DNA of 24,987 nt. Origin: a virus. Under the pieces are notes generated by a model. That model was not told the origin of the DNA and ran no database searches. It saw only the letters and a list, made by a program, of their open reading frames with translations. Every line of letters starts with the position of its first letter. Position 1 is the first letter of the stretch. Of the stretch, positions 1 through 21,467 are shown piece by piece. The position numbers were made by a program, and so were the translations under genes. The stretch spans positions 1 through 24,987 of the IMG/VR virus record IMGVR_UViG_3300017743_000114; one strand, written 5' to 3'.

Positions 1-1372
1 CATAAACAGTTTGAACGGCGTTCTGGGAAGATCCAGTAGTCAAGGCTGTTGTGTCGAAACACACCTGATAAGAGTAGTAGTAGTTTATGTCGGAAAAGTC
101 ACTAGAGGTGTCGGTTCCGTGAGTGCTATCAACAACAATCCTGTACTCATGGGGCGTGGCCTCCGCTGTTAAATCGGTAGATCCGTCTGTGGCAACAGTA
201 ATTGAGTTCGTGTTTATAGCGAGCGAGATATTATTCTCAGTGGAACCATTTCCTAAAGAGGTGAGATCCGTAGTAGAGTCTGGAGTTGTTATTTCTCTGT
301 AGTTACTACCTATTTTGACCTGAACAACAGAGTCAATTAGCGGATCATAAAGCTCGTCTCTTCTTACGTCATAACGAAGAGTAGACTGAACATCACCATA
401 CTCCCTGGTTGTAGAGGTTGTACCCGTTGCGGCAGAAATAGAAGAGTTGCTCCTCGTTATTTGTTTGTCGCTAATAAGAGGCGAGTTAAAGCTATTGGCT
501 GTTGTGAATTCGTTTGCTGTTTGTTCAGTTGTACCGCTAGTGCTGTCCGTCACCCTAAGTCGAAAATGGAATACGTTGTTACTAGCCCAGGCCTCTCCAG
601 TGCTATAGACCTTTGAGAGATTCGAGGCCCCAAAAGTAACCTCAGAAGATGTGTACGATTGAACCGTTGTCCAGGATCCAGTAGGGGTTGACTGAGTATT
701 AGCAAGTTGGTACTCAAGCACAGCCGTTCCCGTAGCGCCCTGGTTGGCAATACCAAAGTTTATAGAAGATATAGTTACAGAAGAGGCACTTGAAGGGTGC
801 TGCCAGTCAGGTCCAGAAAGACTAAAGCTAGGGCTTGGGTTAATAGCGTCCGTGAACGCATCAACTAAAAGCTCTGAGGCGGTTTTTCCATTAGCGGGAA
901 TGGTGTCTCCGTTTTTGTACTTCCCAAAAGTCTTTACAACCCCTGAAACAGTAGGCATGTTTGCCACATAGTTCTGAGTAAAAGTCACTTGGCCTCCGTC
1001 TGCTCCGTCAGCTCCGTCCGCTCCGTCAGCTCCGTCCGCTCCGTCTGCTCCGTCAGCTCCGTCAGCTCCGTCGGCTCCATCAGCACCATCTGCTCCAGGC
1101 GCACCATCCGCGCCCGCAGGCCCAGCAGCTCCGTCAGCACCATCTGCTCCAGGCGCACCATCCGCCCCATCATTACCAGCAGGTCCTTGAGGGCCAGTTG
1201 CCCCAGCAGGTCCAGCCCCAATAGCTCCAGCTACAGAAACGTTATTATTTGCAGCCTGATTTAAAACCACGACCTTAGTGTCGGTACCTCCTTTTACGAC
1301 AGATACTTTAATGATATCTCCGTTCTCACTAGATATCTTTATGCTTTTTGGTTGTTCTACACTTATCGGCAT
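1..1372 (-). CDS. Collagen-like tail fibre / appendage protein (C-terminus outside window)
   Basis: Open from an ATG at 1372 to the window edge, 457 codons without a stop, so the gene is partial. Residues about 1-55 form a leader beginning MPISVEQPKSIKISSENGD. Residues about 55-125 are Gly-X-Y collagen-like repeats (GPAGATGPQGPAG, then repeated GAD triplets). The rest is Thr/Ser-rich and looks like beta-structured, Ig-like fibre modules. Gly-X-Y segments in phage proteins usually form trimeric rods in tail fibres or other virion appendages. It begins 9 nt after the stop of the 131-aa gene and lies downstream of the portal in the same late operon, which fits a virion role. There is no clear Shine-Dalgarno. 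The exact virion position is inferred, not seen. Confidence 0.75.
   Translation of the reverse strand, partial: MPISVEQPKSIKISSENGDIIKVSVVKGGTDTKVVVLNQAANNNVSVAGAIGAGPAGATGPQGPAGNDGADGAPGADGADGAAGPAGADGAPGADGADGADGADGADGADGADGADGADGADGADGGQVTFTQNYVANMPTVSGVVKTFGKYKNGDTIPANGKTASELLVDAFTDAINPSPSFSLSGPDWQHPSSASSVTISSINFGIANQGATGTAVLEYQLANTQSTPTGSWTTVQSYTSSEVTFGASNLSKVYSTGEAWASNNVFHFRLRVTDSTSGTTEQTANEFTTANSFNSPLISDKQITRSNSSISAATGTTSTTREYGDVQSTLRYDVRRDELYDPLIDSVVQVKIGSNYREITTPDSTTDLTSLGNGSTENNISLAINTNSITVATDGSTDLTAEATPHEYRIVVDSTHGTDTSSDFSDINYYYSYQVCFDTTALTTGSSQNAVQTVY
998..1165 (-). repeat. In-gene tandem repeat encoding Gly-Ala-Asp triplets
   Basis: Nine-base units of the form GGAGCNGAC are repeated in tandem at about 998-1080, and a 32-bp exact direct repeat lies at 1080-1111 and 1134-1165 (period 54 bp). 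All units are in frame and encode collagen-type Gly-X-Y, so copy-number change would alter rod length without a frameshift. Confidence 0.85.
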
Positions 1373-1381
1373 AATAGTATC

Positions 1382-1777
1382 TTAAGCTGCTGTTTCTGAC
1401 ACGTCTTCAATAACTCTTACTGTTCCGTAGATTAAAGTAGTTACAACTGCTCCTGACTTCTGTTCGATATCATAAGCATAGAGTCCAGATGGCATCGTCT
1501 TCATTGTGGTCGCAGCCAAGGTGAGATCAATATACTTTGCGGTAACGTCGTCAGAATCTGCCGTTACTGTAATCACAAATTCTACAACAGGGTCGGAGGT
1601 GTTTGCGACTGGGTTGCCCGTGTCGGAATTTCTAACCTCCATTAAAAAAACATCTCCAGCGGTAAAACCAACAGTATCGTCAGCATTGGTTATATTAAGT
1701 CTCAAGGAAAAGGTATCACCCTTCCTGCAAGTGATGTCAACCCTTTCAGATGTATCTAAGTTTATTTTTGTAGCCAT
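1382..1777 (-). CDS. Small beta-rich virion-associated protein (unnamed)
   Basis: 131 aa, compact, with alternating hydrophobic/polar beta-strand character, no Cys-based sites and no membrane segment. The pattern (a G-D-T-F-S-L-R-L-N-I early strand, a central M-E-V-R-N strand, then P-S-G-L-Y-A-Y-D-I and a final G-T-V-R-V strand) resembles small Ig-like or BppU-N-terminal-like phage baseplate/neck proteins. That resemblance is a structural impression, not a family match. The start lies 1 nt after the portal stop, and the collagen-fibre gene follows after 9 nt, so all three are likely co-transcribed late genes. I do not recognise a specific family. Confidence 0.7.
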   Translation of the reverse strand: MATKINLDTSERVDITCRKGDTFSLRLNITNADDTVGFTAGDVFLMEVRNSDTGNPVANTSDPVVEFVITVTADSDDVTAKYIDLTLAATTMKTMPSGLYAYDIEQKSGAVVTTLIYGTVRVIEDVSETAA

Positions 1778-1778
1778 C

Positions 1779-4160
1779 TTATTCGTTGATTATTTGTGGT
1801 GTTTCATCCCCTTGTCTTTGAGCTATGAGCTTGCTTTGCTCGGCAGACTGCTTTTTAACTCTATCGTCTTTGCGGTCCTCTTTAAGGACTTCAAGTTTTT
1901 CTTTGAAGTTTTCGTCAGTCTCTTTGAAGCCAAGGGTAGCTTGAGCTTTAATAATTTCAATCTCTTTCCTAAACCCGTGCTTTACCTCTTCTAGTTGAGC
2001 CTCCAGCTGAGTCTTAAGCTGCATCTCTTGCGCTTTTAGCTGAGCTTCCATTTGCATCTCTTGCTGCCTAGCCTGAGAAGCAGACTGTGCTGACTGCTGT
2101 TGAACCTGAGCTTGCTGCTGGGAGTTCTGCTGAGCCATCTGCTGGTTGCTAGCCATTCGCTTCTTCCTTCTAACGATCAAAAGCCTCTCAGCCTGGTTTA
2201 CGTCCCTAAGCTGTCGTATAGCAAGGGCGTCCTCAAGGTCTATCTCTTTTTGAGACAAGGCTATCTGTATGTTCTGCTCCAAGAACTGTCTCTCGTTCTC
2301 TTCCATCTCTTTTACAACCTTTACGCCGAAGTTAAACATCGACAGGTTTCTGAAGGAAGACAACACTTTCATGTTCTCCTTGCCAACAGCGTTTTCATAC
2401 ATAGAGTATAGAATAGAGTCTGGATGAATAACCTGCAAGCACTTTACCACATCGCTACAAACTTTCTTGTACAGAACCATAGAGGAGTTCGTGATGTCAT
2501 ATATAGCGTTGTTTGCAGCAGCAAGAGCTTGTTGCCTAACTCCCACCAGGGCGTCTCCTTTAGGTGAAGAGGCGTCCATCACCTCGTTGATTCCCGTGGA
2601 GTCTCTGATCATCCTGAGGTAGTGGTTATACAAACCAGTTAACTCGTTAATGTTACGGATGCTGTTGCCGATCTCTCGAATAGGAGGGTTTTGAAAACCT
2701 CCTTCTGGGTTCTTGCTTCTATAGTAGAACACACCAGTCTGCTCGTATATGTCGTGCAGCTCAAGCGGCTGAAGTTCTCCGCCCTTTCCTAACTGTACGT
2801 TTTCCAGTCCCTCAATATCAATGATGATACCGTCTGGTTTTGCCTTCGCTACAGCCTGTTGAATCTTTAAGTGAGTAAGCTGAAGTTGATCGGCGAACCC
2901 GATGCAGCTATCCACCATAGACTTAGGCATCATGTCCATCATGTTCGTAGCACAAACAGAATAAGATAAGGATGCTTTTGTTATGTCGTGAATGTTTTTT
3001 GGTATGTTGGTCTTCTTTCCATAACCAAAGACCATATCACAACCAAGGATGTAGTATCCACCGTAAACACATGTGTTGTCTAACCTCACAGAGTCTCTGT
3101 TGAAAACAGAGTTTTGTGGTTGACTATAGTTGTTTCCCTTGTCGTAAAACCCTACATTTCCGTACTGGTTTTCTTTTGACTCGTAATAGGTTGAATCTAC
3201 CGAGAGAAACTCAAATTCAAGCACCTTTACAGTGTGCTCTTCCGTGTCCATACCAGGTCTATTTGAAGTCTTGTTATACAGCCCAGATGTATTGTTCTTC
3301 TGACCAGAACTAGCCACCTTCTTGTAATCCTCTTCGGTTAGCTCATTACCAGCAATTCTTTTAAGCTCAGCAATAGGCATTGTTTTTACATGACCAGCAT
3401 AAGTCATGTCTCCGAAAGAAGGGTCTTCTGTGTAGCTGTGGATAAAGTCAGACGGATCAACATATTCGGTTTTGATTCCGTAGCTAGGGTCGTTAGTTCT
3501 TTTAACAACAGCCATACCAAGTATGGTCATGTCGTTCACGCACCTTCTAAAAACAGAATCATTAAAGTCGTTCCACTCCAGGGTCAGGTTAGTGGCTATC
3601 TGAGCGGCGATTTCTGAAGAAGCCTTAACGTTGGTACCCATGAATATTTCAGCCTCCTCAAGGGTTTCTGGAATAGATTCGGGATCTCCAGCTACCTCAA
3701 CTCCAAGCTTGCTTTTAATACCCTGAAGAGCCGCCTTGGATTTTACAGCAAATTCAATCTTCTTCTTCTCTAAATCCTTTTCCGAAGTAGATAGAGGGTC
3801 GATAGCCTCCAGGTTTGGGTAAGGAGACAAAGAAAGAATCTTGTTTACTACAATGCGGACAAACTTGGGAAGGATTGGAACTGGGGTAAAGTCCAGGTTC
3901 AGCATACTTCCGTCGCCGTTATTAGGGTCAAGAGACGTAAGCAAGGATCTGTATATAGCCGTGTCTTGGGTTCCGTTAGCGTACTTCCTGTTCTTCTCGA
4001 AAGTTCGGTTCCTGTTCTTGTAGGTGGACCCGTCCTGATCCATTTTACCCCACTGCTGATATATAGCCTTAGCGTATCCCAGTCCATACTTCTTTCCTCC
4101 TTTTTCTTCTGGAGGGCTAAGCGGATTAGGAAAGCCTGATTTTTTGTTGTTGATGTTCAT
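1779..4160 (-). CDS. Portal protein
   Basis: 793 aa from the ATG at 4160; an in-frame TTG two codons upstream is less likely. The portal forms the dodecameric ring at the capsid vertex through which DNA is packaged and ejected. The call rests on overall length, position directly after TerL, and portal-like features: an N-terminal region with ILPKFVRIVVNKILSLSPYP (about residues 95-115), a mixed alpha/beta central body, and long C-terminal helices. The last ~130 residues are strongly Gln/Lys/Glu-rich and predicted coiled coil, an expected barrel/crown-type tail for large portals of Bacteroidetes podoviruses. A TATATTTG -7 element lies in the gap after TerL (4192-4199), so the portal may have its own promoter as well as read-through from TerL. 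Confidence 0.8.
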   Translation of the reverse strand: MNINNKKSGFPNPLSPPEEKGGKKYGLGYAKAIYQQWGKMDQDGSTYKNRNRTFEKNRKYANGTQDTAIYRSLLTSLDPNNGDGSMLNLDFTPVPILPKFVRIVVNKILSLSPYPNLEAIDPLSTSEKDLEKKKIEFAVKSKAALQGIKSKLGVEVAGDPESIPETLEEAEIFMGTNVKASSEIAAQIATNLTLEWNDFNDSVFRRCVNDMTILGMAVVKRTNDPSYGIKTEYVDPSDFIHSYTEDPSFGDMTYAGHVKTMPIAELKRIAGNELTEEDYKKVASSGQKNNTSGLYNKTSNRPGMDTEEHTVKVLEFEFLSVDSTYYESKENQYGNVGFYDKGNNYSQPQNSVFNRDSVRLDNTCVYGGYYILGCDMVFGYGKKTNIPKNIHDITKASLSYSVCATNMMDMMPKSMVDSCIGFADQLQLTHLKIQQAVAKAKPDGIIIDIEGLENVQLGKGGELQPLELHDIYEQTGVFYYRSKNPEGGFQNPPIREIGNSIRNINELTGLYNHYLRMIRDSTGINEVMDASSPKGDALVGVRQQALAAANNAIYDITNSSMVLYKKVCSDVVKCLQVIHPDSILYSMYENAVGKENMKVLSSFRNLSMFNFGVKVVKEMEENERQFLEQNIQIALSQKEIDLEDALAIRQLRDVNQAERLLIVRRKKRMASNQQMAQQNSQQQAQVQQQSAQSASQARQQEMQMEAQLKAQEMQLKTQLEAQLEEVKHGFRKEIEIIKAQATLGFKETDENFKEKLEVLKEDRKDDRVKKQSAEQSKLIAQRQGDETPQIINE

Positions 4161-11800: not shown

Positions 11801-12580
11801 TTATTCAGGATAATAGCTGTTGGAGTAGTACATCCCCTGAGGCTGTTGGTACTGAGGGCCTCCAGAGTTAACTGCGCCCCCAACGTTTGGATCAAACCCA
11901 TAGCTCATCTGAGAGTTGTCCTCCATAGACACTTCAGGTAGCGCCATTGGCTGTGGTTTTAGGGTTTTATATATGTCCATACCCACATCTACTACAGGCT
12001 TAACAGTGTCTACCACCTTCTTTACCTTCTGAGCTCCCTGTAGGATCTTTGCACCCGTGCTCAACGCTGTCGTCCCTGCCGTGGTAGCTGCCGTGGTACC
12101 AGCTCCAGCCACACCAGCCGCTCCAGGAGCTGCACTTAAACCAGCCAGTAATCCGCTAGTAGTAGTAGCACCACTCACACCTGCTGTCGTACCAGCCGCT
12201 GCTGCACCCGCTCCAGCTCCAGCTCCAGCACCTGCTGCACCAGCACCAGCAAACGCACCCAATGCACCTGCCGTAGCCACTGTTCCTACCGCTAAAGCAG
12301 TTCCAGCAGCTATGTTTCGGGTTCTTTTCTTGCCTAACTCGTCAAAATAGCGGTCAGCATTCTGTTCTTGGGCATTGTATTGCTTATACCCCTCGTATCC
12401 GTCTTTAATCTGGTCTCCACGGCGCTTAGCCTTACGCTTAGCACGTCTATTGATACGATCCTGCTTGTTCTGCGCTCTTTTATACTTTCGGAAGTCCTTT
12501 CCTTCGAGATCCCCACCAGCTAACTCAGCGGCTGCTTCGCGATCCCTCTCGTTTCCCACTCTATATTTTAATCTAGACAT
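11801..12580 (-). CDS. Ala/Gly-rich probable internal virion (ejection) protein
   Basis: 259 aa. Basic, Arg/Lys-rich N-terminus (RINRRAKRKAKRR), then about 100 residues of almost pure Ala/Gly/Thr with weak hydrophobicity (about 90-185), ending in a Pro/Gln/Tyr-rich tail (YYSNSYYPE). This architecture is common in podovirus internal proteins that leave the head with DNA and interact with the membrane. Similarity to a named family is not seen. Its first codons overlap the stop of the basic HNH-like gene by 8 nt. Confidence 0.6.
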   Translation of the reverse strand: MSRLKYRVGNERDREAAAELAGGDLEGKDFRKYKRAQNKQDRINRRAKRKAKRRGDQIKDGYEGYKQYNAQEQNADRYFDELGKKRTRNIAAGTALAVGTVATAGALGAFAGAGAAGAGAGAGAGAAAAGTTAGVSGATTTSGLLAGLSAAPGAAGVAGAGTTAATTAGTTALSTGAKILQGAQKVKKVVDTVKPVVDVGMDIYKTLKPQPMALPEVSMEDNSQMSYGFDPNVGGAVNSGGPQYQQPQGMYYSNSYYPE

Positions 12581-12815
12581 TTCTTTTAGATCCTTTTAGT
12601 CGTGATGCTTCTCTAATACCCCTGTTCTGGGAGGCTGTCATTACTCTTGCCTTTCCTTTCTTATGGTGTACATCCTTACCATCACCCTTTTTAACCTTAC
12701 CCTTCTTAGCAAAGAGCCTACGTAGCTTATTTCTTAAAGCACGGCGCTTTTTTTGTTTGCCAGACTTCTGGAACTTCTTGTATTCCTTATTATAATTGCG
12801 CTTCTTGGCTTTCAT
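12573..12815 (-). CDS. Small very basic HNH-like phage protein
   Basis: 80 aa, about 40% Lys/Arg. The core KKGDGKDVHHKKGKARVMTASQNRG (about 44-68) corresponds to the D-[IV]-H-H-x-D-G-N...V-M-S-x-x-x-N-R pattern of small phage proteins related to HNH endonucleases, but the catalytic-loop G-N and following Asn are absent (K-G-K instead), so it may not cut DNA. It is the first gene of the leftward late operon. A TATCTTTG element ends 5 nt before its ATG. Confidence 0.65.
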   Translation of the reverse strand: MKAKKRNYNKEYKKFQKSGKQKKRRALRNKLRRLFAKKGKVKKGDGKDVHHKKGKARVMTASQNRGIREASRLKGSKRNV

Positions 12816-12820
12816 AGGAT

Positions 12821-12828
12821 CAAAGATA
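12821..12828 (-). promoter_or_regulatory. -7 element of the leftward late operon
   Basis: Minus-strand TATCTTTG followed by ATCCT and ATG. It is identical to the -7 of the early plus-strand promoters, but the -33 position holds TAAAG, not TTTG, with the usual 20-nt spacing; the same TAAAG occurs before the portal element. Expected transcripts would be leaderless or nearly so. Confidence 0.5.
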
Positions 12829-12894
12829 CGATAATACAGTTTTTGCGCCTTTACAACTTAATTAGTTTGACTGACGCTCCGTAGCTACTGTTTT

Positions 12895-13594
12895 ATTACT
12901 TACATAAGTAATCCTAAAGACAGCCTCGTAGGTTTAAAACATCTATGAAGCTTTATCGCTGAATAGCTTTGGCGAAGTTACAACTTTTTTCTTAGAAAGT
13001 CAAGTCAGCAATACACTTTAATTGAACCCTATAAGTCACTAAGTGACAGCTTCTTAACCCGTATATAGTGGTGGCGCGTTGATAACTATGTTGATAAGCC
13101 ACGTTCGAAAAAGGGGCCAGCAATACAGATCGTGGGGATTATATGTATCATGAGTTGGTTGGGGTATCACCCCAAAACCAGATGCTTAAACCCCGTAGGT
13201 ATAATGCAAGGGGGTTTTTGCCAAGGATTCTGGCTTTTAACCACAGCTAGTAAGCTGTGTTTAAGTAGGATGACCACCTTTGGTAGGACTCAAACAGCAG
13301 TAAACGTAGTTTAAACAGCAATCAATCAGCTTGGAACAATCCCCCCTCTTAACCTCTGGTTAAGTATATACCTTCATTTATGAAGGTCCAGTGGCTTCGA
13401 GGAAAATCTCTCCAATGTGTATGAAATCCCTTTAGGGATCGCGTCATTGGTAGTCAACCCGTGAGTATTAGCAAGCTAATACCGTAGGTTGAATGGAGTA
13501 GAGATAGAGTATATGAAGAAGGAGTCTTATGACTTCTTCATTTACTCTTTATCTCTTAAGGTTGGTTTTGGAAGTCGACCATCCTTGAGGAACT
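12895..13594 (+). ncRNA. Candidate large structured non-coding RNA, tiled stem-loops
   Basis: The 792-nt gap between divergent genes (12816-13607) has no credible gene. From about 12895 it is tiled with perfect hairpins: ATTACTTA/TAAGTAAT (12895-12912), GTCAC/GTGAC (13035-13047), TTGGGG/CCCCAA (13159-13175), CACAGCT/AGCTGTG (13242-13259), CTTAACC/GGTTAAG (13348-13364), ACCTTCAT/ATGAAGGT (13370-13387), CCAATG/CATTGG enclosing ATCCC/GGGAT (13412-13450), TCAACC/GGTTGA enclosing GTATTAG/CTAATAC (13454-13492), a 55-nt three-tier hairpin (13501-13555) and CTTAAGG/CCTTGAG (13555-13589). Strand is inferred from the following gene and from purine-rich loops. It could be a free RNA of the GOLLD/ROOL type or a very long structured leader. 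A weak TAGCTTTG at 12964 is the only internal -7 match. Confidence 0.5.
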
Positions 13595-13607
13595 CAAAAT
13601 CTCTACC

Positions 13608-14282
13608 ATGTCGAAGACATTAGAAAACAAATCAGCTATGCTGAAAGACCTCAAGAAAGCTGTAAACAGCTTTGTTTACTCTCCAACGGAGAGCAAGTTG
13701 GCAAACTGCCGACTCCAAGTTACTGAACTTGTTCAGTTCCTTCAGTCCATCGAAGTTCCGAAGGAAGAGGCTAAGAAGCCAAAGGCTTCTAAGTCAAAGT
13801 CCAAATCCAAGCCGAAGGCTACTAAGTCTTCGAAGAAGACGGGGCGGAAGGCTGAAATCGAAGCCCTTCTATCTTCTGGTAAGAAGATGAAGAGAGCAGA
13901 ACGTTCCGTTCTGAACAAGGAGTTGTTTGCTCTGCAAACAGCAGAGAGACGCTCTTCGAAGAAGAGCAAGTCGAAGACTGTCCGTCGTCCTAAGAGGACG
14001 TCAGAAGCTGGTCTTGAGTTAACTCAAGCTAAGGACGGCATCGGAATTGGCAAAGCCAAAAAGACAAAAGCTGTTGCTCTTGACGGTAGTCAAGCTATGC
14101 CCTTCGAGCCTAGGAAGGAGGTTGAAGTAGTCGAACCAAAGGTTCGTAAGAAGGAGTTCATGAAAATGACCCTCTTAGAGGGTGAGACTGTCGAGGAGTG
14201 CATGGCTCGACTCCGCTCCGCTCAGATAGAGGCTGCCCGCCTTGAAGCTGAAGCTTTGATTGCTGACACTGCTCCCTTCTGA
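13608..14282 (+). CDS. Lys/Ser-rich hypothetical protein encoded by hairpin-studded DNA
   Basis: 224 aa. Residues 1-50 look helical. Residues 55-140 are Lys/Ser/Arg-rich (KASKSKSKSKPKATKSSKK; later SSKKSKSKTVRRPKR), like a nucleic-acid-binding tail. The C-terminal ~50 residues are helical and acidic. The start follows CAAAATCTC-TACC-ATG, the same leader motif as three promoter-driven genes. The protein could bind the structured RNA just upstream; that is inference from position and charge. The coding DNA carries a perfect 5-8 bp hairpin roughly every 35 bp (see the repeat entry), unlike typical genes here. Confidence 0.75.
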   Translation: MSKTLENKSAMLKDLKKAVNSFVYSPTESKLANCRLQVTELVQFLQSIEVPKEEAKKPKASKSKSKSKPKATKSSKKTGRKAEIEALLSSGKKMKRAERSVLNKELFALQTAERRSSKKSKSKTVRRPKRTSEAGLELTQAKDGIGIGKAKKTKAVALDGSQAMPFEPRKEVEVVEPKVRKKEFMKMTLLEGETVEECMARLRSAQIEAARLEAEALIADTAPF

Positions 14283-14333
14283 TAACGTAGTTATCACTTC
14301 ATTAGTTATTAAACCCTTTAAATCATAGATTTA
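13632..14333 (+). repeat. Array of short perfect hairpins inside and after a coding gene
   Basis: Stem/loop/stem units include 13656 AAAGCTG-TAAA, 13679 CTCTCC-AAC, 13697 GTTGGCA-AAC, 13722 ACTGAAC-TT, 13774 AGAAGCC-AAA, 13826 GTCTTC-GAA, 13871 ATCTTCT-GGTA, 13897 CAGAACG-TTC, 13924 TGTTTGC-TCT, 13951 GCTCTTC-GAA, 13986 CGTCCT-AAG, 14013 CTTGAG-TTAA, 14047 TTGGC-AAA, 14079 CTTGAC-GGTA, 14132 CGAACC-AAA, 14169 ACCCTC-TTA, 14190 GTCGAG, 14280 TGATAAC-GTA (over the stop codon) and 14319 TAAATC-ATA (ending on the next ATG). Each is followed by its exact complement (13697 has one G-U). Sequences differ between units, so this is a repeated structure, not a repeated sequence. Confidence 0.85.
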
Positions 14334-14587
14334 TGTCTCAACCAATTTTTGCCTTTGTCTTCCCGTTCGATAGCGGGGCTGAGTTTCGCTGTAAGCGGAA
14401 CTTCCCAGACGCGGAGAGTGCCGCGAACTGGGCTGTGGAAATCATCCTCAAAGAGGGTGATGAGTATTGCCTCTTCAGAGAAGTGCCATCCTCGGACTAC
14501 GTGTTCGAGCCTGCCCTTGAGTCCCACTCGGTGGTGCGGTGGCATGATGACGCTCCAACATGGGAGGTGTACGATATCATCGACTAA
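14333..14587 (+). CDS. Hypothetical early protein
   Basis: 84 aa, acidic, Trp/Phe-rich, beginning MSQPIFAFVFPFDSGAEF; mixed alpha/beta, no membrane span and no motif. The start codon lies at the 3' edge of a perfect hairpin (TAAATC-ATA-GATTTA), which could modulate initiation. The stop is followed by another hairpin, TACCC-TAAA-GGGTA (14589-14602), without a T-run. Function unknown. Confidence 0.65.
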   Translation: MSQPIFAFVFPFDSGAEFRCKRNFPDAESAANWAVEIILKEGDEYCLFREVPSSDYVFEPALESHSVVRWHDDAPTWEVYDIID

Positions 14588-14612
14588 CTACCCTAAAGGG
14601 TATAAAATTAAA

Positions 14613-14685
14613 TTTGGAAAGACGGAAAGTCTGTCTTATCTTTGTAACCGACGGCAATGTTGCTGTCATTCAAAATCTCAATCCT
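14613..14685 (+). promoter_or_regulatory. Early promoter P1 with conserved leader
   Basis: TTTG (14613-14616), 20-nt spacer, TATCTTTG (14637-14644). The leader starts with a hairpin GACGGCAA-TG-TTGCTGTC (14650-14667, one G-U pair) and ends CAAAATCTCAAT (14671-14682), CCT, ATG. The same architecture recurs at 16279 and 18174. Confidence 0.88.
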
Positions 14686-14853
14686 ATGCTCAACAGCACA
14701 GATACACAGCGCAAGAAAGCGCAAATGGCTTCGGCTCTCTTCAACGATGTTCAACTCCTTGGCTCTGCAATCACTTGCACGGCAGGCTTCGATGCCCTGT
14801 CCTGCGACGATCAGATGCGCCTTGAGGACTTAATCGGTGGTGAAAATGTATAA
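14686..14853 (+). CDS. Small early protein
   Basis: 55 aa. The ATG at 14686 is chosen because it is the first after promoter P1 and is placed exactly 3 nt behind CAAAATCTCAAT, as in the two sister transcripts; longer forms would begin before the promoter. Helical N-terminus (NSTDTQRKKAQMASALFND) and an acidic end. No motif. Possible host-takeover peptide, by position only. Confidence 0.65.
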   Translation: MLNSTDTQRKKAQMASALFNDVQLLGSAITCTAGFDALSCDDQMRLEDLIGGENV

Positions 14854-14983
14854 TCATTTTCTTGAATTCTCCCTTGAGGAGATGGTAGATGCCTATGTCT
14901 ACTTCAACTACATCCACGACTACGAAGGCTGTCAGCTTGTTGCTGATGCCTACGATGCTCACACTTCTTTAATTTTCAATTAA
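14846..14983 (+). CDS. Small acidic, Tyr-rich early protein
   Basis: 45 aa, overlapping the previous gene by 8 nt; starts MYNHFLEFSLEEMVDAYVYF. Rich in Tyr, Phe, Asp and Glu. Its first codons lie in a GAAAATG/CATTTTC hairpin (14841-14860) that also holds the upstream stop, suggesting coupled translation. No family recognised. Confidence 0.5.
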   Translation: MYNHFLEFSLEEMVDAYVYFNYIHDYEGCQLVADAYDAHTSLIFN

Positions 14984-14995
14984 TCTTTTTCAAAT

Positions 14996-15427
14996 ATGAA
15001 TACAATGTTCTCAACACACGCTGTTCGCCTTGCCTATGGCAGAACCCTTATGGATGGCGGCTCATCCCTACTCACGTCAGACGGATACGACTTTGAAGTC
15101 CCTTATAAGGGCTTCATGGTGGGCGGTCTGTCAGGAGAAACCAAAATCCCTTTGGATATCTGCGATTCCAACACGTTCCACACCATCTGGCTCAAGTATG
15201 CTACCGAGGTGCGCAAGCTAATCAAGGAGTCCAGACTTAGCGGAGTCTCGTATGCTGTAGGCACTTGGGTTGACAATGACTGCATCGTCTTCGATGTATC
15301 TGAAAAGGTTAACAGTTCTCGCTCTGCCTATGCATTATGCAAGGACAGAAACGAGGATGCCTACTACGACGTAGGGGAAAGCAAAAGTGTTTTCATAGAC
15401 AAAGAAAATGACAATGCAGAAGCCTGA
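14996..15427 (+). CDS. Hypothetical early protein
   Basis: 143 aa; mixed alpha/beta with repeated Gly-Gly/Ser turns (MDGGSSLLTSDGYDFEV, FMVGGLSGETKIPLDI) and a helical middle (WLKYATEVRKLIKESRLSG). No membrane span or metal motif. Starts after an A-rich TCAAAT leader, 12 nt from the previous stop. Function unknown. Confidence 0.65.
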   Translation: MNTMFSTHAVRLAYGRTLMDGGSSLLTSDGYDFEVPYKGFMVGGLSGETKIPLDICDSNTFHTIWLKYATEVRKLIKESRLSGVSYAVGTWVDNDCIVFDVSEKVNSSRSAYALCKDRNEDAYYDVGESKSVFIDKENDNAEA

Positions 15428-21098: not shown

Positions 21099-21467
21099 AT
21101 GAATGATGACATCAAAAGGCTACAAGAGGAGTACTATGCTACCCTCAACCTCACCCCCAACATATCCAGGAAAGCACCACAAGTTCAGGCACGAGCCGCA
21201 CTGATGGTCGCTATGGCTCACTACATGACCAAGACAGAAGTGGGCAAAAGCTTTGGCAGAGACCACAGTACGGTCATACACCATCAACGTCAGCATGAAG
21301 GCAATCTGTTTTCGTGGGATGGGTACGAAGAGAAGTACCTGCTAGCTGTAAGGCTATGCAGTGTACACCTCCAATACAACAGCATCGAAGAGAAGCTTAC
21401 AACAATTAGAGTCCAAATCAAAAGGCTAGAGGGTCTAGCTGAAAATCTAAAACAAGAACTCGTATGA
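21099..21467 (+). CDS. DnaA domain IV-like DNA-binding protein
   Basis: 122 aa. Residues about 24-66 match the C-terminal DNA-binding domain of bacterial DnaA: helices ending with the signature GRDHSTVIHH (53-62), the basic recognition helix that reads DnaA boxes. DnaA itself is ~450 aa with an AAA+ ATPase; here only the binding domain is present, followed by a Glu/Lys-rich helix (IEEKLTTIRVQIKRLEGLAE). It could bind the phage origin or block host initiation. First gene of the operon from P4; its stop overlaps the next start by 4 nt. Confidence 0.85.
   Translation: MNDDIKRLQEEYYATLNLTPNISRKAPQVQARAALMVAMAHYMTKTEVGKSFGRDHSTVIHHQRQHEGNLFSWDGYEEKYLLAVRLCSVHLQYNSIEEKLTTIRVQIKRLEGLAENLKQELV

Follow-up and report, generated by a model that had tools for sequence, protein, structure and literature searches.

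The hairpin locus and its genomic setting

We analysed 24,987 bases of viral DNA (positions 1–24,987 of IMG/VR virus record IMGVR_UViG_3300017743_000114), the whole of which we call the window. It encodes a terminase and a portal protein. By terminase, at about 33–40% identity, it is closest among cultured phages to Flavobacterium Elemovirus, Maribacter phage Panino and Cellulophaga phages, and the terminase of the environmental podovirus genome MW202828 is 48% identical to that of the window; judging from these phage relatives alone, the hosts are probably Bacteroidota. Leftward genes to the left of about 12.9 kb are structural (late), and rightward genes to the right of 13.6 kb are early or replication genes, including an exonuclease and a protein with a DnaA C-terminal domain. 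The hairpin locus described here (Table 1) is the point at which late and early genes diverge, and the cumulative GC skew reaches its lowest value there as well. Elsewhere in the window, a minus-strand open reading frame at 985–1221 and its complement have a low-complexity, tandem-repeat look (VRLEQMVLTEL.. and SSVRSVSSV..).

The AlphaFold model of the 224-residue protein encoded by the first early gene shows a helical hairpin, with basic stretches modelled at low confidence. Searches of PHROGs, Pfam and PDB folds gave no informative match for this protein, neither the first nor the second early gene has relatives among 50,697 phage records, and the first has none among the cellular genomes searched.

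Table 1. The hairpin array and its flanking elements, with positions in the window
Feature	Position	Strand	Description
DnaA-box-like 9-mer TGTTGATAA	13089–13097	-	1 mismatch
Conserved block CAATACAGA..TGGGGATTAT	13121–13149	+	Just ahead of the first hairpin; kept in aligned homologues
Leader part of the array	13159–13482		Hairpins 13159–13175, 13242–13259, 13348–13364, 13370–13387, 13426–13439, 13465–13482
Long imperfect hairpin before the start codon	13500–13556	+	About 60 nt, about 20 paired positions
Hairpin-saturated gene	13608–14282	+	224 aa, Lys/Ser-rich, helical N-terminal domain; 17 perfect hairpins with stems of at least 6 bp
Overlapping hairpins	13656–13739		13656–13673/13662–13679; 13716–13731/13722–13737/13725–13739; plus 13679–13693
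Hairpin AGAAGCC(AAA)GGCTTCT	13774–13790		Encodes KKPKAS; unit repeated in longer homologues
Densest run	13826–14028		13826–13840, 13871–13888, 13897–13913, 13924–13940/13930–13946, 13951–13967, 13986–14000, 14013–14028
Hairpins	14079–14183		14079–14094, 14132–14146, 14169–14183
Hairpin TGATAAC(GTA)GTTATCA	14280–14296		On the stop codon; unchanged among aligned homologues
Hairpin TAAATC(ATA)GATTTA	14319–14333		Ends at the next ATG
Next gene	14333–14587	+	84 aa; perfect stems of at least 6 bp absent in the window, G-T-containing hairpins present
DnaA C-terminal DNA-binding domain protein (PF08299)	21099–21467	+	E 2.3e-7, just below the curated cut-off

A dense array of perfect mini-hairpins

Between 13608 and 14333 we count 26 perfect inverted repeats with stems of at least 5 bp and loops of 3–8 nt, and 19 with stems of at least 6 bp, which corresponds to one per ~37 bp. 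At the latter threshold the remaining ~23.7 kb of the window hold 31, or about one per 760 bp, in agreement with the chance rate of one per ~680 bp given in the initial annotation. Counts per 500 bp rise from about 0.7 elsewhere to 5 in 13001–13500, 13 in 13501–14000 and 6 in 14001–14500. The gene itself was proposed in the initial annotation to be saturated with mini-hairpins, and the excess is real at the coordinates given and exceeds what was proposed: it survives the codon-preserving shuffles that the annotation had named as a control, which yield 1.66 ± 1.22 hairpins with stems of at least 6 bp (maximum 6), so that none of 500 shuffles reaches the observed 17. No excess of such stems was found in 18 other window genes tested in the same way, and eight homologues of the gene have 6–21 hairpins against 1.3–3.1 in their shuffles.

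Further details of that annotation fared unevenly. The stems do differ at every site, and the hairpins on the stop codon and ending at the next ATG are both there. The extent was right for the gene but too narrow, as the array also includes the non-coding leader from 13159, and the description of the loops as purine-rich does not hold in general, leader loops mostly starting with a pyrimidine (TAC, TTT, TCT, TT). The complementary codons (AAGCC/GGCTT) of KPKAS-type repeats speak for chance, or for an artefact arising from the assembly or from a bias in Lys/Ser codons. However, codon shuffles of the same protein fail to give the hairpin count, the leader array falls outside coding DNA, and the array recurs in 42 loci on many different metagenome contigs; these observations refute the artefact reading, to which we assign practically no probability.

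Conservation of the array without conservation of its sequence

Relatives of the gene were collected from IMG/VR and from terminase-anchored contigs, giving 42 non-redundant loci from related phages, in which the array lies at the same genomic place. Counting stems of at least 6 bp with spacers of 2–4 nt, we find 719 hairpins across leader and gene where about 29 are expected: 266 against 16.9 in the 650 nt preceding the gene, where the expectation comes from block shuffles, and 453 against 11.7 in the gene. Even L137–L140, which share only about 40% identity with a relative that is itself remote, carry 11–14 hairpins in 134–181 codons, and in a 63.5-kb relative the array locus is the sole hairpin hotspot. 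Homologues that keep the protein but lose the stems, the outcome that the initial annotation had set out as contrary to its claim, are thus not what is seen among these relatives. The weakest arrays are those of L088 and of L042 (gene 1096–1737, minus strand) and L043 (gene 1673–2362, minus strand); in the latter two the protein has a different N-terminus and few hairpins remain. A tie between the array and the N-terminal helical domain was considered and set aside, as it rests on these two related exceptions, both of which keep some hairpins. In L009 and in the L083 group the gene carries the array, and the leader little or none of it. No comparable array was found in the cultured relatives Elemovirus, phi38:1 and phi13:2 or in MW202828, which were scanned in part incompletely. 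Two further observations concern gene content: the terminase of the L007 contig (G001) reads as two open reading frames (26692–27837 and 28034–28828), perhaps owing to a frameshift or an insertion, and a 61.5-kb relative contig (L104, and L105 at 84–440) seems to carry part of the gene a second time, towards its opposite end.

The gene is under purifying selection, with dN/dS of 0.14–0.43 against homologues. Between the window and L056 or L058 synonymous sites are saturated (dS 1.3–1.4), and all of them keep 16–18 hairpins with loops of 3–4 nt. The stems themselves turn over. At one aligned position the stem is TCTTGC, CTCCTTC, CACCTTC or CTTCTGC depending on the relative; in place of ACCCTC(TTA)GAGGGT at 14169–14183, L006 has a shifted CTCTCCT(GGA)AGGAGAG, reached through synonymous changes of the T-L-L-E-G codons; and leader stems read ATCCC..GGGAT in some relatives and GCATC..GATGC or GTGTTAAC..GTTAACAC in others. 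Of 57 aligned pairs in which both bases have changed, 40 form Watson–Crick pairs, where a third would be expected, so that the covariation looked for in homologues is present. Because corresponding hairpins have different stems and dS exceeds 1 between distant members, it is the property that is conserved and not the sequence: dense, perfect mini-hairpins of narrow size extend over the leader and first early gene and are retained while their stems are replaced.

A candidate origin or promoter beside the array

A perfect DnaA box, TGTGGATAA, lies about 510–630 nt upstream of the gene in 7 of the 42 loci, six of which are close relatives; within 2.5 kb, perfect boxes occur only upstream of the array, and the window version has one mismatch. 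The block at 13121–13149 is a candidate promoter or origin-unwinding element, and together with the DnaA boxes it makes a replication origin, or an early promoter, plausible at this locus; the phage protein with a DnaA C-terminal domain is in keeping with an origin. Since the array begins right after this possible early promoter, it also matches the 5′ part of the presumed early transcript. The long hairpin before the start codon covaries in 26 of 27 homologues, with G-C alternating with U-A and an outer stem almost free of G-U; in several relatives it directly adjoins the ATG, and relatives contain GAATTC(TAT)GAATTC within it.

Geometry of the hairpin unit

Two unit types recur, a stem of 6–7 bp around 3 nt and one of 7–9 bp around 2 nt. 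Spacers of 2 and 3 nt dominate the array, against a flat distribution in background DNA of the same clade. Pooled upstream stems number 32, 41, 30, 3 and 2 at 5, 6, 7, 8 and 9 bp for 3-nt spacers, and 16, 9, 15, 26, 18 and 1 at 5, 6, 7, 8, 9 and 10 bp for 2-nt spacers, the counts of distinct stems being partly non-independent by descent. These distributions imply a total unit length of about 15–20 nt with a sharp upper edge. The closing pair of the triloops is 5′-pyrimidine/3′-purine in 175 of 188, mostly C-G and far from the shuffled fractions, and C-GNA-G or its complement forms the most frequent triloop group; the loops are not of the GNRA or UNCG type. Both GNA triloops in DNA and GNRA loops in RNA are documented to prefer C-G closure (PMC5815330), and the preference seen here can thus be no more than supportive. 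We also considered the 2-nt spacers as RNA tetraloops and rejected this: the closing preference lies at the inner pair and not at the next one, which agrees better with a genuine spacer of 2 nt.

The same geometry is found in the promoters of the N4 virion RNA polymerase, which have a 5–7 bp stem, a 3-nt loop and a C-G closing pair, are extruded from supercoiled DNA and serve the phage early region (PMC4496689). Hairpin promoters of this type would also fit the prevalence of C-GNA-G or its complement among the triloops. N4, however, has three promoters of conserved sequence (PMC4496689), whereas here no conserved sequence accompanies the hairpins, stems differ everywhere, loops are loosely biased, and some 25 hairpins in leader and gene, many of them inside the gene, far exceed the need for promoters. 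No candidate for an N4-like or crAss-like virion polymerase emerged from PF00940, a PDB search or a motif search, none of them a sensitive exclusion: PF00940 was not found in three relatives or MW202828, though control genomes were equally silent, and the giant open reading frames of the 63.5-kb relative have no DxD[GI]D motif. We regard N4-type promoters as very improbable.

Pairing at the level of DNA or RNA

The initial annotation suggested that coding and non-coding parts form one hairpin-array RNA. Leader and gene do constitute a single array, but its RNA nature finds weak support or none. Under such an explanation, the 5′ early mRNA (leader, first gene and start of the second) would fold into consecutive mini-hairpins that shield the message, set its timing or let it regulate itself, or to which the Lys-rich, basic protein encoded there binds, as the annotation also proposed. 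The coincidence of the array with the leader and first early gene fits this, as do the conserved hairpins at the stop codon and at the start codon that follows it, and a mean folding z-score of about −2.4 in the array against −0.7 outside. Stem covariation also fits a structured mRNA, but DNA-level arm copying predicts the same. Single-stranded RNA phages have highly structured coding RNA, with hairpins throughout that are kept by covariation, and in their RNA G-U pairs are tolerated and one strand is favoured. The array resembles them in having covariation-kept hairpins across a coding sequence, and differs in that leader and gene show neither G-U tolerance nor a strand preference.

Indeed, the arms in leader and gene are strictly Watson–Crick. 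Across the 42 loci, one-mismatch 7-bp stems carry G-T and A-C about equally (9 vs 8 in the leader, 14 vs 14 in the gene), next to 104 perfect 7-bp stems in the leader (2.9 expected) and 109 in the gene (about 3 expected). One-mismatch, decayed stems are not in excess in the leader, and imperfect stems are slightly so in the gene. An excess of G-T over A-C in an early, smaller set (28 vs 10, 7-bp stems) proved in the 42 loci to come from the downstream part only. There, in hairpins of the next gene and the intergenic stretch, G-T exceeds A-C by 20 to 5 (p = 0.004), and G-U is retained while neighbouring pairs covary (AGACGGA/TCTGTCT, TAACGGA/TCTGTTA). The + strand is therefore favoured in that part, which supports an RNA role and argues against a purely DNA reading. 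The hairpins at 14333–14690, with conserved G-T on the + strand, are unlike those of the array and may be ordinary RNA hairpins.

Within the array, further features speak against RNA. Folding z-scores are alike for both strands (−2.41 vs −2.51); triloops and 2-nt spacers take the place of tetraloops; and some hairpins share arms (13656–13673/13662–13679 and 13716–13731/13722–13737/13725–13739) and are mutually exclusive, so that not all can form simultaneously. About half of the two-sided compensations are of transversion type, as common as those of transition type. Where stems are identical, 10 of 18 doubly different 2-nt spacers in the leader are exact inversions, with about 2 expected, and so are 4 of the 9 gene spacers of 3 nt that differ throughout. 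Such inversions, like compensation of the transversion type, require a DNA-level process, and arm homogenisation with spacer inversion is described as the trace left by a polymerase that switches template at hairpins in DNA (PMC8604942). Taken together, Watson–Crick-only arms, unbiased compensation and spacer inversions point to the formation and copying of hairpins in DNA rather than to a simply folded mRNA. An Rfam covariance-model search of 12500–15100 returned nothing credible, the best scores lying far below the gathering score. We consider the RNA-level explanation rather unlikely, while acknowledging the weight of the downstream hairpins.

Selection or mutational by-product

A DNA-level process need not imply use. 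A template-switching hotspot, with replication stalled or restarted near an origin, might keep writing hairpins that have no function of their own. Template switching is known to leave spacer inversions and strictly identical arms (PMC8604942, PMC6649704), decayed one-mismatch hairpins are not in excess upstream, and the overlapping hairpins resemble successive copying. Copying alone, however, would not predict the sharp ceiling on stem length. The array also stays at one place throughout deeply diverged relatives, and with the protein under purifying selection a continuous mutational load would have to be tolerated. Synonymous change per site is also slower in stems (0.088) than outside (0.146) or in loops (0.275), a moderate difference for the stems, which were defined from the same sequences as the rate test, with inherited events counted repeatedly. 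The slower change in stems and the stop of growth at 7–9 bp suggest that the hairpins are kept for use beyond mutational writing, and a mere by-product seems to us unlikely.

Discussion

Our preferred interpretation, held tentatively and at somewhat less than an even chance, is that the mini-hairpin array is maintained at the DNA level beside a candidate origin, at the late/early divergence point of uncultured phages with probable Bacteroidota hosts. From the sequence patterns we infer DNA-level formation with arm copying, plus a use near the origin or in the early region. In such a scheme, the locus would often be single-stranded or supercoiled, during origin firing or early transcription, letting the hairpins extrude; polymerase snap-back or template switching would copy arm onto arm and flip spacers, keeping the arms perfect; and a DNA-level step using the hairpins would ensure their retention. 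The most plausible user would be a replication protein, or the basic protein encoded by the array itself, binding the origin-proximal hairpins. It is doubtful, though conceivable, that the first early gene serves at once as the code for a basic protein with a helical domain and as DNA to be bound, in the form of some 25 size-limited single-strand hairpins, by its own product or by a replication enzyme, with arm copying renewing the hairpins.

The literature that we searched describes no system matching this pattern, and the array pattern is accordingly what would be new, with partial parallels elsewhere. Coding palindromes in the mitochondria of Nematomorpha are likewise perfect inverted repeats in functional protein genes, perfect or absent and not half-decayed, with dynamic gain and loss, and their authors proposed arm conversion by template switching (PMC6649704). 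Those palindromes, however, are scattered across mitochondrial genes and reach 284 bp, whereas the phage array is a single locus in a DNA phage, with about 25 units of some 15–20 nt that also occupy the leader. In yeast, template switching at short inverted repeats shares the arm homogenisation and exact spacer inversion, but consists of rare events in 39 genes (PMC8604942), whereas the phage array is dense and is conserved as a property throughout a clade.

The locus offers a clear natural case in which the shape of a nucleic acid rather than its sequence is conserved within a working protein gene, and its units vary so little in size that a physical partner or limit suggests itself. The locus opens to test how a coding sequence can accommodate structures by the dozen, each independent of the others, at what rate hairpins in DNA are renewed as a phage replicates, and whether phages put DNA-hairpin arrays to use at an origin or in the early region. 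Should the gene indeed double as bound hairpin DNA, structure would here be inherited while sequence is left free.
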